Origin: Rhodospirillales bacterium
GTDB lineage: Bacteria; Pseudomonadota; Alphaproteobacteria; JAJFIK01
NCBI GenBank assembly: GCA_021775005.1
Contig: JAJFIK010000005.1
Coordinates: forward strand, 1 to 59,440
Direction: 5' to 3'
DNA length: 59,440 nt
Below, one piece after another: positions 8,314 through 38,766 of this stretch. Within the stretch, counting starts at the first letter, position 1, and every line of letters begins with the position of its first letter. The position numbers and the translations under genes were made by a program. Under the pieces are notes generated by a model. That model saw nothing but the letters and a program-made list of their open reading frames with translations. It was not told the origin of the DNA and searched no databases.

Positions 8314-9555
8314 TTAGGAATAGCGGATTTCGTCGGCTTTTTCCGCGTCGTCGGACTTGGCCTCTTCCGTGGCGAGAGCCAAATCGGTGAGGAAATCGTC
8401 CATCGCGGCCTCGTGCGCCGGGGTCAGCATCATGTGAAGCGCCGGTGGTTCCGTGGTCGCGCCAGGCCACCAACCGCGCTTGTTCAGTGCCGCCCAAAGC
8501 TTGAAAAGGTCGAGCCCGTCGTAGCCGAAATTGATAATCATCAGTTTTGACGCGCCATAGACCGTATAGCCAAGCGCGCTGAGGCCCTGTTCCAACTTGG
8601 CGCGAGTCTCGAGGATCACCTTGGCTTTGGCGGTGTAGCCCTCGACCCCGAGGTAATTCATCACCGCCCAAGCGGCCGCAATGGCGCCGCCCGGCCGAGT
8701 ACCCGCTAGCGTCGGGGTTTTCATTTGACCCGAGGGCCAAACATTGAAGTCGGTGGCTTGAAAACTGTGCAGCTCAGCTGTGCGGTAGAGCACGGTTGAG
8801 GCGCCCTTGGAGGCATAGCCAAATTTGTGCAAATCCGCCGACATGGATGAAACACCGGGATTGCGAAAATCCCACGGCGTTAGCTCGACGCCGTTAAGTT
8901 CTGCAAAGGGCGCGAAGTAGCCGCCAACGCAGGCGTCCACATGAAACCAAAGGTCGCGCGCGCGGGCGATCTCTGACATTTCAGGAATCTGCTCTACCAA
9001 GCCGCTGGGGAACGCGGGCGCTGAGCCCACACACATGATGGTGTTGTCATCAATGGCCGCTTCATATGCCCCCAGATCAGGCAGCCGCGTTACATCATCA
9101 ATGGCAGTGCGGATCACTTCGACGCCGAGCAAGTGCCCAGCCTTATTGAACGCAGGGTGACCTGAGTAGGGAATCACCAAGTTGGCTTTGGAAACGTCTT
9201 TGCCCTGCGCCTTGGCGCGGTCGCGGCAAGATTTCACCGCCAAGATGATGCTCTCAGTACCACCAGATGACATGCCCCCTGCGGCACCTTCTGGGGCGTT
9301 GAACAAATCCAGCGCCATTTCCACCACTTCGTCTTCCATGGTTTTCAGCGATGGAAACGCGCCCTGGTTCAGCCCGTTCTCGGACTGAAACATGGTGTAG
9401 GCCTCTTTGATCACTTCAATGACATCCGGCCCGGCGAAGAAGACATTGTAGCCGTTGCGGCCATGACGCCAATCAATGTCGCTTGTCGCCATCTCCTGCA
9501 TTTGTGCTTTGAGGTCCGCCCATGGTGTGCCGGATTTGGGAAATGATTTGCTCAT
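8314..9555 (-). CDS. PLP-dependent lyase/decarboxylase, sphingosine-1-phosphate lyase-like
   Basis: This 413-residue fold-type I PLP enzyme belongs to the group II decarboxylase / S1P lyase branch. Visible features are the phosphate-binding S-S-G-G-T-E-S (residues 96-102), the cofactor aspartate region H-V-D-A-C-V-G-G (205-212) and the Schiff-base lysine in S-A-D-L-H-K-F-G-Y-A-S-K-G (H243, K244). The D-x-H-K-[FY]-G-x-x-x-K-G pattern is that of S1P lyases, which split phosphorylated sphingoid bases into an aldehyde and phosphoethanolamine. The protein lacks the N-terminal membrane anchor of eukaryotic S1P lyase. A related amino-acid decarboxylase remains possible. It lies downstream of two terminator hairpins and a tiny ORF, which could control it. 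Confidence 0.85.
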   Translation of the reverse strand: MSKSFPKSGTPWADLKAQMQEMATSDIDWRHGRNGYNVFFAGPDVIEVIKEAYTMFQSENGLNQGAFPSLKTMEDEVVEMALDLFNAPEGAAGGMSSGGTESIILAVKSCRDRAKAQGKDVSKANLVIPYSGHPAFNKAGHLLGVEVIRTAIDDVTRLPDLGAYEAAIDDNTIMCVGSAPAFPSGLVEQIPEMSEIARARDLWFHVDACVGGYFAPFAELNGVELTPWDFRNPGVSSMSADLHKFGYASKGASTVLYRTAELHSFQATDFNVWPSGQMKTPTLAGTRPGGAIAAAWAVMNYLGVEGYTAKAKVILETRAKLEQGLSALGYTVYGASKLMIINFGYDGLDLFKLWAALNKRGWWPGATTEPPALHMMLTPAHEAAMDDFLTDLALATEEAKSDDAEKADEIRYS

Positions 9556-9636: not shown

Positions 9637-9667
9637 AAAAAGAAAGGGCCGCTTTTTCAGGCGGCCC
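9637..9667 (-). terminator. Rho-independent terminator 2 (minus strand)
   Basis: On the minus strand a perfect 7-bp stem GGGCCGC/GCGGCCC (arms 9667-9661 and 9652-9646) with an 8-nt loop is followed by TTTCTTTTT. It is the second of two tandem terminators between the 26-codon ORF and the PLP lyase, and stands about 80 nt upstream of that gene's start. Confidence 0.7.
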
Positions 9668-9670
9668 CAA

Positions 9671-9700
9671 GAAAGAAAGGGCCGCTCTTACGAGCGACCC
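9671..9700 (-). terminator. Rho-independent terminator 1 (minus strand)
   Basis: On the minus strand GGGTCGCTC pairs with GAGCGGCCC (9 bp including one T-G wobble) around a GTAA loop, followed by TTTCTTTC. It lies 53 nt after the stop of the 26-codon ORF and directly before terminator 2. Confidence 0.7.
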
Positions 9701-9752
9701 TCCATGAGATTGGGTCTTATCCAACCGTGGTATTTAGCCAAATACCGGCGCT

Positions 9753-9833
9753 TTAAGCGCACCCCGGAGGCTGCTCCGACACATGCTTATCCGCGTCAAA
9801 GTTTTCAAAGATCCAAATAATCTCATTAGACAT
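9753..9833 (-). CDS. Candidate 26-residue peptide with an extended Shine-Dalgarno
   Basis: On the minus strand the ATG at 9833 opens a 26-codon frame ending in TAA (peptide starts M-S-N-E-I-I-W-I-F-E-N-F-D and ends Q-P-P-G-C-A). Upstream, 9849-9835 on the minus strand reads GAAAGGAGGTGATCC, complementary over 15 nt to the universal 3' end of 16S rRNA, and GGAGG is 7 nt from the ATG, an ideal spacing. No other gene in the window has such a site. Two terminators follow. The peptide is acidic and aromatic, with one cysteine near the end. It could be a genuine small protein or a leader controlling the PLP-lyase gene. No family recognised. Confidence 0.5.
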   Translation of the reverse strand: MSNEIIWIFENFDADKHVSEQPPGCA

Positions 9834-9939
9834 TGGATCACCTCCTTTCGTTGGTTGAACACTGGCTCAAATTTGGCATGATTTGCGACAACGGCAAAGC
9901 AAAAATTCCGGAGCCGTTAACACCCCAAAAGGCGGCCAT

Positions 9940-10995
9940 TTACAGCAGCTCTAAGCTGCCCAAATGCAGCGCCTGCAGGGCGGGGCGCTCCGCCATAACC
10001 GCAAACATTTCATCGCCTCGTTCGGTGCGCTCCACCAACATGGAGGCGATCAGGGCCATGACGAATCCTGAAAATGCGCCGAGCTTATAAGTCTGCCAAC
10101 ATCGGCCCCATTGATAGCCGGTTACACCATGCGCAATGAGATCATCGAAGTAACGCCGCACCAGCGCTTCCTCACAAGACGCCCGAGCGCTCGCGTCGGC
10201 AAAGCTGGTGCCCATGAGGTACGCCACATCGGTTGGACCCGCGCCGCGCCCTAAGGTTTGCCAGTCCACCACGATGGCGCGACCATCAGCGTCAGTGAAC
10301 AGCATGTTATCGAGGCGCAAATCATTGTGCGCGATTGTCTTGGGTGTTTCACGGTCAGCGAGAAATTGATCCCACCGCGCCACCAAGTCGCCCCCAAATT
10401 CAAACACTTCCGGGGCGAGACGGGTTTTGTAGCGCGCGCAAAACTCTGGATAAACTTGCGGCACGAACGCGCGGATGAAATCGCGATTGCCTTCGCCATA
10501 ATTGAGCCACGGCAATTCGCTCAAGCGCGGATCATTCCAAAAGTACGCGTGCAGTTTTGCCGCCTCGGCCAATACTTGTTCAATCTGTGCGACATCCGCA
10601 CCGCGCAATTGGTCGCCTTGGGTTGCGGGGGCCAAGTCTTCCAGCAACAGCACAAACGAGGCCAGATCCTCGCCCAGCGCCACGTGGTAGCAATGGGGCG
10701 TGCGCAACGGCGCCTCACGGGCAAAGGTCTGATACCATCGCGCTTCAAGCTCATAGCAATGCATGGCTTTGCCCGCGTTGCGGCTGGCTTCATCGGCAGC
10801 GGGGCACTTGGCGACAATGCTTGATGGGGCGTCACCTTGATGTTCCCAATCAAAACTCAGCCGAAAGCTATCGCACATTTGCCCAGTGCCGATGGGTGCT
10901 GTGTCAAAGCCGCGTAGTTTGGACCCCCCAAACCCTGCTGCTTCGCAAAGCCATCGCGGCGTAAAGTGTTCCGGGCGCATGGGAAAGTCGCTCAT
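9940..10995 (-). CDS. Aminoglycoside/choline-kinase-like phosphotransferase
   Basis: The 351-residue protein has the APH/EcKL kinase fold signature: catalytic loop I-A-H-N-D-L-R-L-D-N (H223, D225, N230) and the metal aspartate in I-V-V-D-W-Q (D244). A lysine in I-V-A-K-C-P near residue 63 would be the ATP-binding lysine, and E-x-x-x-Y/W in Y-E-L-E-A-R-W-Y follows. Members of this family phosphorylate small hydroxylated compounds; substrate is unknown here, and resistance to aminoglycosides should not be assumed. Its ATG overlaps the stop of the upstream gene by 4 nt (ATGA), so it is translationally coupled to the unknown 373-residue protein. Confidence 0.85.
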   Translation of the reverse strand: MSDFPMRPEHFTPRWLCEAAGFGGSKLRGFDTAPIGTGQMCDSFRLSFDWEHQGDAPSSIVAKCPAADEASRNAGKAMHCYELEARWYQTFAREAPLRTPHCYHVALGEDLASFVLLLEDLAPATQGDQLRGADVAQIEQVLAEAAKLHAYFWNDPRLSELPWLNYGEGNRDFIRAFVPQVYPEFCARYKTRLAPEVFEFGGDLVARWDQFLADRETPKTIAHNDLRLDNMLFTDADGRAIVVDWQTLGRGAGPTDVAYLMGTSFADASARASCEEALVRRYFDDLIAHGVTGYQWGRCWQTYKLGAFSGFVMALIASMLVERTERGDEMFAVMAERPALQALHLGSLELL

Positions 10996-38461: not shown

Positions 38462-38766
38462 TCTCAAAGTCCCTTTGTGTTTGGCTTAAGTTTTATGTTT
38501 CACACCTCGTTAAAGCCCTGCTTCTACGCTGGCAAGTGTGGAGCGCATCTGCAGGCGGGCATAGCCCATAAATCCTGCAGGTGCTTCCCCGATAAGGGCA
38601 AACCGTCTGGAAGGGCGGGGCGCAAAACCACCGGCCCAAACTTTCATATTGAAAGCGGGCAGCGGGGTCGCCGAAGGGAGCCGAGCAGTTTCTCTGTTCC
38701 GATCGGTCATCAGCATGCAGATGACCTGCCTGCGGTGAGGATGAATGGCTTGGAGGCTCAGGAGCC
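38462..38766. other. 305-bp stretch between acyltransferase and parA-like gene
   Basis: No certain gene. A minus-strand frame of 68 codons (38510-38716, listed separately) is the only candidate. The region must contain the promoter of the acyltransferase (minus) and of the ParA-like gene (plus), but I see no clear boxes or repeats. Confidence 0.4.
38510..38716 (-). CDS. Possible 68-residue protein upstream of the acyltransferase
   Basis: An open frame from ATG 38716 to TAA 38510. The C-terminal half (R-F-A-L-I-G-E-A-P-A-G-F-M-G-Y-A-R-L) has a protein-like composition, whereas the frame upstream of the ATG is a shadow of the ParA-like gene. C-A-G-G-T is the only ribosome-site candidate, which is weak. 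It would be divergent from parA by 50 bp and precede the acyltransferase by 48 bp on the same strand. No family recognised. Confidence 0.3.
   Translation of the reverse strand: MLMTDRNRETARLPSATPLPAFNMKVWAGGFAPRPSRRFALIGEAPAGFMGYARLQMRSTLASVEAGL

Follow-up and report, generated by a model that had tools for sequence, protein, structure and literature searches.

The described RNA most similar to the element analysed here is CC2171 (RF01867) from Caulobacter, which Rfam types as an sRNA gene with a description that contains neither an ORF nor a function. In the openly accessible literature, CC2171 was found only in a screen of Mesorhizobium, where it was detected as MH_s33 (PMC5596092), and in the Rfam 15 update, which lists it with the structures that gained one covarying pair (PMC11701678). 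According to a study on Caulobacter, two RNAs earlier regarded as noncoding are in fact translated and most intergenic ncRNAs are untranslated (PMC4117421); we do not claim that CC2171 is either of these two.

The element resembles trpL/rnTrpL of Sinorhizobium (PMC7298713, PMC10117765) in having a short, presumably translated ORF followed by a terminator, and in both cases the position of the ribosome would be expected to pick the fold. In contrast to trpL, the element has its own promoter and terminator, and it contains no regulatory codon runs. It would work like a leader-peptide switch but falls outside that definition, because it has no conserved downstream gene. Small RNAs with a Shine-Dalgarno (SD) sequence and a short ORF have been described as Pos19 (PMC5036791) and Spot 42, but in these the peptide is a product of interest, whereas the peptide sequence is not selected here. 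Pos19 itself was excluded as an identity of the element, being RpoE-dependent and confined to R. sphaeroides (PMC5036791). SD pairing beyond the usual core has been reported for the extended SD motifs of Staphylococcus aureus (PMC13009471); there the extension is common to initiation in general, and cryo-EM showed two additional pairs. In the element, the whole tail of the 16S rRNA is matched by a sequence that is essentially unique in the genome.

Layout of the element and its match to the 16S rRNA tail

The element occupies positions 9637-9897 on the minus strand of the window, the 59,440-nt stretch of DNA that was analysed. It consists of a promoter, a 15-nt match to the 16S rRNA tail (hyper-SD), a 26-codon ORF and tandem terminators, in that order:

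9870-9897, minus strand: sigma-70-like promoter with -35 TTGCCG (9897-9892), 16-nt spacer and -10 CAAATT (9875-9870)
9863-9861, minus strand: transcription start, estimated from the promoter position
9835-9849, minus strand: hyper-SD GAAAGGAGGTGATCC, whose complement is the complete single-stranded 3' tail of 16S rRNA in Alphaproteobacteria
9753-9833, minus strand: 26-codon ORF MSNEIIWIFENFDADKHVSEQPPGCA, with ATG at 9833 and TAA at 9755-9753
9819-9826, minus strand: helix strand h5 ATGAGATT in codons 3-5, partner of 9711-9704, with covariation in 74 dissimilar members
9810-9816, minus strand: part 1 of the internal 16S-tail mimic, TTGGATC in codons 6-8, predicted to pair with GATCCAA in the SD/start region
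9766-9771, minus strand: part 2, internal anti-SD GCCTCC in codons 21-23, predicted to pair with GGAGGT in the SD
9704-9711, minus strand: helix strand h3 AATCTCAT, adjoining the first terminator on its 5' side, partner of h5
9676-9703, minus strand: first intrinsic terminator GGAGGGTCGCTCGTAAGAGCGGCCCTTT
9645-9668, minus strand: second intrinsic terminator GGGGCCGCCTGAAAAAGCGGCCCT

The 15-nt match, the ORF and the two successive terminators had already been recognized by the sequence-only reading and were found as described, as was a gene about 80 nt further on. This gene starts at 9555, about 82 nt past 9637, and its product is a Pyridoxal_deC (PF00282) protein, a PLP enzyme. Upstream, the element is flanked by a kinase-like gene (EcKL/APH, 9940-10995). 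In 244 upstream regions of family members, with positions counted from the SD, TTG[AC]C motifs are concentrated between -50 and -47, and hexamers of the -10 type between -27 and -24. The corresponding motifs of the window copy are TTGCC (-48) and CAAATT (-26), the latter a poor match to TATAAT. From this arrangement, the element looks like a self-contained transcription unit. Both terminators contain the repeat GCGGCCCTTTCTTT (9645-9703, minus strand), suggesting a local duplication of the terminator.

The mature 16S rRNA tail starts with GGAUC and ends near UUUCU. The 16S 3' end reads GCGGCTGGATCACCTCCTTTCTAAG in genomes of the Alphaproteobacteria, which stand in for the 16S 3' end absent from this assembly, and thus the hyper-SD covers the whole single-stranded tail. 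The same sequence is found in a 16S oligonucleotide of S. meliloti (PMC6943124). The perfect 15-mer is present as a single copy in the 2.85-Mb assembly, for which simple arithmetic predicts about 0.005 copies by chance, and the next best sites have 2 mismatches. A scan of 190 genomes, which left out the antisense of 16S and did not require a start codon, gave 34 non-rRNA matches; all 34 were followed by an NTG start, located 2 nt past GATC in 33 cases and 1 nt past it in one. When the gap was left free between 1 and 7 nt, it was 2 nt in every match. Genomes with a hyper-SD carry about one, except for G013 with two. By these counts, the hyper-SD belongs specifically to this RNA and goes together with its start codon. 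Outside the Alphaproteobacteria, searches for an TAAGGAGGTGATC-tail counterpart yielded just scattered matches with irregular spacing.

Relationship to CC2171 and distribution

In a permissive Rfam scan, RF01867 matched positions 9857-9679 with 49.9 bits (E about 1e-9). The element shares with this family GAAAGGAGGUGAUCC followed by the start codon and UCU, a terminal hairpin and a long-range pairing between the start of the ORF and the segment before the terminator. Both the 5' block (GAAAGGAGGUGAUCCA-NUGUCU) and the 3' AUGGAGGG-terminator block are present in the alignment of the window copy, and the long-range helix, which covaries across the wider family, is represented here by ATGAGATT/AATCTCAT. 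In the middle of the model, the alignment has deletions or insertions, and the score stays below the gathering cut-off of 75 bits. For this reason, the element is regarded as a divergent relative of CC2171 and is not called a member. RNAI, BjrC1505, BjrC68 and CcsR1 were rejected as Rfam identities; their matches were far under their own cut-offs and were taken as chance.

Across the class, RF01867 was detected at E<=0.01 in 69 of 289 genomes and passed its cut-off in nine of the 289; Caulobacter vibrioides, one of the named controls, was also found. Members from other orders likewise match RF01867 below the cut-off and have no match to any further sRNA family at E<=0.01. When one mismatch was allowed, the pattern GAAAGGAGGTGRTCNNRTGTC occurred in 89 of 385 class genomes, and the reversed pattern gave one match. 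In a sample of the phylum, 51 of 86 class genomes (counted from the rows listed) had the pattern versus 2 of 213 others, and these two were one-mismatch matches not above the reversed control. Since the member patterns require a nearly complete hyper-SD and miss degenerate members, these frequencies are a lower bound for the class. The 80 named loci belong to Rhizobiales, Sphingomonadales, Rhodobacterales, Rhodospirillales, Acetobacterales, Caulobacterales and Hyphomonadaceae, with a few unresolved 'Proteobacteria' bins; none of the 80 was from any other named class. In total, 245 distinct relatives were gathered, mostly one per carrying genome. As judged from these searches, the family reaches across the Alphaproteobacteria, usually with about one copy per carrying genome.

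Within the genus, comparison at the DNA level gave only short chance matches, except for the SD region of one contig (G001:C62). This putative congener, an assembly to be viewed with caution for its 8% contamination, has AAAAGGAGGTGATCC-CC-TTG followed by an unrelated 14-codon ORF, a pairing that differs from that of the window (CTAACCA/TGGTTGG) and a terminator. The two RNA copies of G013, a genome from the same family as the sphingomonad-type members, belong to one clade type each (L021 and L098; MSHCHA... and MSHGSA...).

Selection on the reading frame and covariation in the RNA

Among 95 mutually dissimilar members, codons 2-14 contain no in-frame stop in 1235 positions, versus 54 and 80 stops in the other two frames. 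The first in-frame stop lies at codon 14-36 in 93 of the 95 ORFs, and the first stops of the other frames scatter from codon 1 to over 99. ORF length is clade-specific within this range of 14-36 codons and mostly amounts to 18-26. It is 18 codons in 40 of 42 sphingomonad-type ORFs and 14 codons in all 14 ORFs of the Bradyrhizobium type. In 25 ORFs of the Rhodobacterales type, a set chosen by its length of 18 codons and for which the member listing shows no VSR-type of other length, the stop codon at this one position is TAG in 13, TGA in 10 and TAA in 2.

The encoded peptides are similar within an order and entirely different between orders. The similarity within orders extends to third codon positions and is thus found at the level of the RNA. 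The pooled ORFs have a pN/pS of about 1.05 without an excess of third-position changes, whereas neighbouring genes analysed with the same method as a control have a pN/pS of 0.345 and a large third-position excess; like the covariation test described below, this test pools sequences of shared ancestry. Conservation of the peptide had been proposed as a subject for tblastn, and this search found no homologue in 59 relatives except the window itself. Comparison of the members therefore indicates that start, reading frame and stop, and with them ORF length, are under selection in the family, and that the amino-acid sequence is not. The suggestion that the element is a short mRNA for an abundant peptide is accordingly strongly supported as far as a stand-alone small transcript with a selected frame is concerned, but not with regard to conservation of the peptide.

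In Rhodobacterales-type members (e.g., L191 and L177), the stop codon adjoins a short GGGCAGCCC-like inverted repeat. GCAGCC is also present in the distal part of window-type ORFs (GGAGCAGCCTCC).

RNAalifold applied to whole-clade MAFFT alignments gave a weak consensus for divergent clades, and pairing of codons 3-5 with the segment before the terminator was therefore tested with the register kept constant. Of the 518 cells from 74 dissimilar members that had a clear anchor, 386 were paired, versus 308 +/- 8.4 (maximum 334) in 5000 permutations of the partners, and pairing was far lower in shifted registers. Compensatory pairs include CATTGT/ACAATG, CATCGT/ACGATG, CATGGT/ACCATG, CATAGT/ACTATG, AGTGAT/ATCACG, AGTGAG/CTCACG and AGTGAA/TTCACG, and the version in the window is AATGAG/CTCATG. 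The covarying helix is absent from the predictions for the Rhodobacterales and Bradyrhizobium types, and the RNA of the window has a different minimum-energy state. In this predicted fold (-76.6 kcal/mol, z -5.86), the partner of GGAGGU is GCCUCC from codons 21-23, and that of GAUCCAA is UUGGAUC from codons 6-8.

Segments resembling the 16S tail are enriched in or after the ORF: exact matches of at least 7 nt occur in 23 of 96 members (expected 5.9; reversed control 1) and of at least 8 nt in 11 of 96 (expected 1.2). Duplexes between the SD and internal segments beat those of shuffled sequences above expectation in most clades; the sphingomonad type has no enrichment of the mimic. Fold prediction yields competing structures, in which either the SD is covered or h5 and h3 are paired. 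The closing helix dominates the predicted ground state in the SHC clade, and the SD is covered in those of the Rhodobacterales and Bradyrhizobium types. Alternation between the two folds is a plausible reading of these predictions. In L138 and L212, the 16S anti-SD tail is copied within the RNA, as GGATCACCTCC, at a site 3' of the ORF.

Proposed function and alternative explanations

The comparative evidence documents a stand-alone unit with a covarying helix, an enriched anti-SD mimic and a start, frame and stop that are kept without a kept peptide. We are rather confident that the element is a stand-alone RNA in which translation is selected and the peptide is not. The complete model of a ribosome-gated, two-state stand-alone small RNA of about 190 nt, in which translation and not the peptide is selected, is also probable, though it is held with somewhat less confidence. 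According to this model, the RNA would be expressed and translated. In one fold, the internal copy of the 16S tail would cover the SD and the start; in the other, codons 3-5 would be paired with the pre-terminator segment, leaving the SD open. A 30S subunit, competing with the internal mimic for the SD, would be captured by pairing with its entire 3' tail, and a ribosome on the ORF should choose between the folds. After initiation, a run of codons of set length would be translated and the ribosome would clear the mimic and h5. With the peptide drifting while frame and stop are kept, passage of the ribosome may be regarded as the selected event, so that selection would keep the act and extent of translation.

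Regarding the output, our leading guess, put forward tentatively, is that the RNA serves as a sensor or a temporary holder of free 30S subunits and has its effect in trans; base-pairing in trans by the exposed anti-SD segment comes second. Similarly speculative is a class-wide switch for ribosome availability, in which a fixed run of codons of any sequence would be the signal, the 16S tail would be contested with its internal copy and the result would be reported in trans.

The sequence-only reading had also considered a ribosome-dependent attenuator of the PLP gene. Such a cis leader would fit the terminators between the ORF and the PLP gene, but across 148 loci no conserved co-directional downstream gene was found, and in 83 of the 148 the next downstream gene is on the opposite strand. 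The neighbouring proteins form 222 clusters, the largest of 10, mostly inside a single clade. Since neighbour genes vary and often lie on the opposite strand, this explanation was rejected for the family and is very unlikely for the window. The earlier idea of an RNA driven by ribosome engagement looks correct, and the cis target does not. A strongly translated small mRNA with a functional short peptide as its product is improbable. It would account for the maintained start, frame and stop and for the alike peptides within orders, but a pN/pS near 1 versus 0.35 in neighbouring genes, the lack of a third-position excess and the complete difference between orders argue against it, as does the within-order likeness at third positions. 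Behind the same hyper-SD, four loci (L049, L109, L110 and L220) have ORFs of 55-59 aa that begin like signal peptides (e.g., VSKSMKTLAVASVLMFGSAISGAALAEC...), which would favour a functional peptide; they represent either a lineage in which the ORF has turned into a genuine secreted protein or another gene borrowing the ribosome site.

About equally improbable is an ordinary base-pairing sRNA with an incidental ORF, whose CCUCC-type segments would block the SDs of target mRNAs. Internal anti-SD segments are indeed enriched, and SisA-type sRNAs of Caulobacter use an anti-SD 10-mer (PMC12559287). However, neither the absence of stops from the ORF frame only nor a start fixed 1-2 nt past GATC is expected of an incidental ORF. 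Less likely still is an RNA acting on the 16S rRNA, for instance as a pairing partner of the 3' tail while it matures or as a check on its maturity. The complementarity covers exactly the single-stranded tail, and tail-like segments are carried as well, but such a role would leave unexplained why the start codon, the open frame and the stop are conserved.

With translation as the probable target of selection, a family filed as an sRNA in one lineage becomes a class-wide RNA with a whole-tail SD, a frame of fixed length and a drifting peptide. This combination suggests that, in a free-standing RNA, translation itself is what regulates; to our knowledge, such a role of translation is otherwise known mainly from cis leaders. 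Annotation as an sRNA and annotation as a small protein would each be half right for such an RNA. Caulobacter, Bradyrhizobium and Mesorhizobium offer clear and cheap experimental targets. Elsewhere in the window, a c-di-GMP-I-GGC riboswitch aptamer is located at 38588-38676 on the plus strand, with a score of 65.9 bits, which exceeds the Rfam cut-off for this family.
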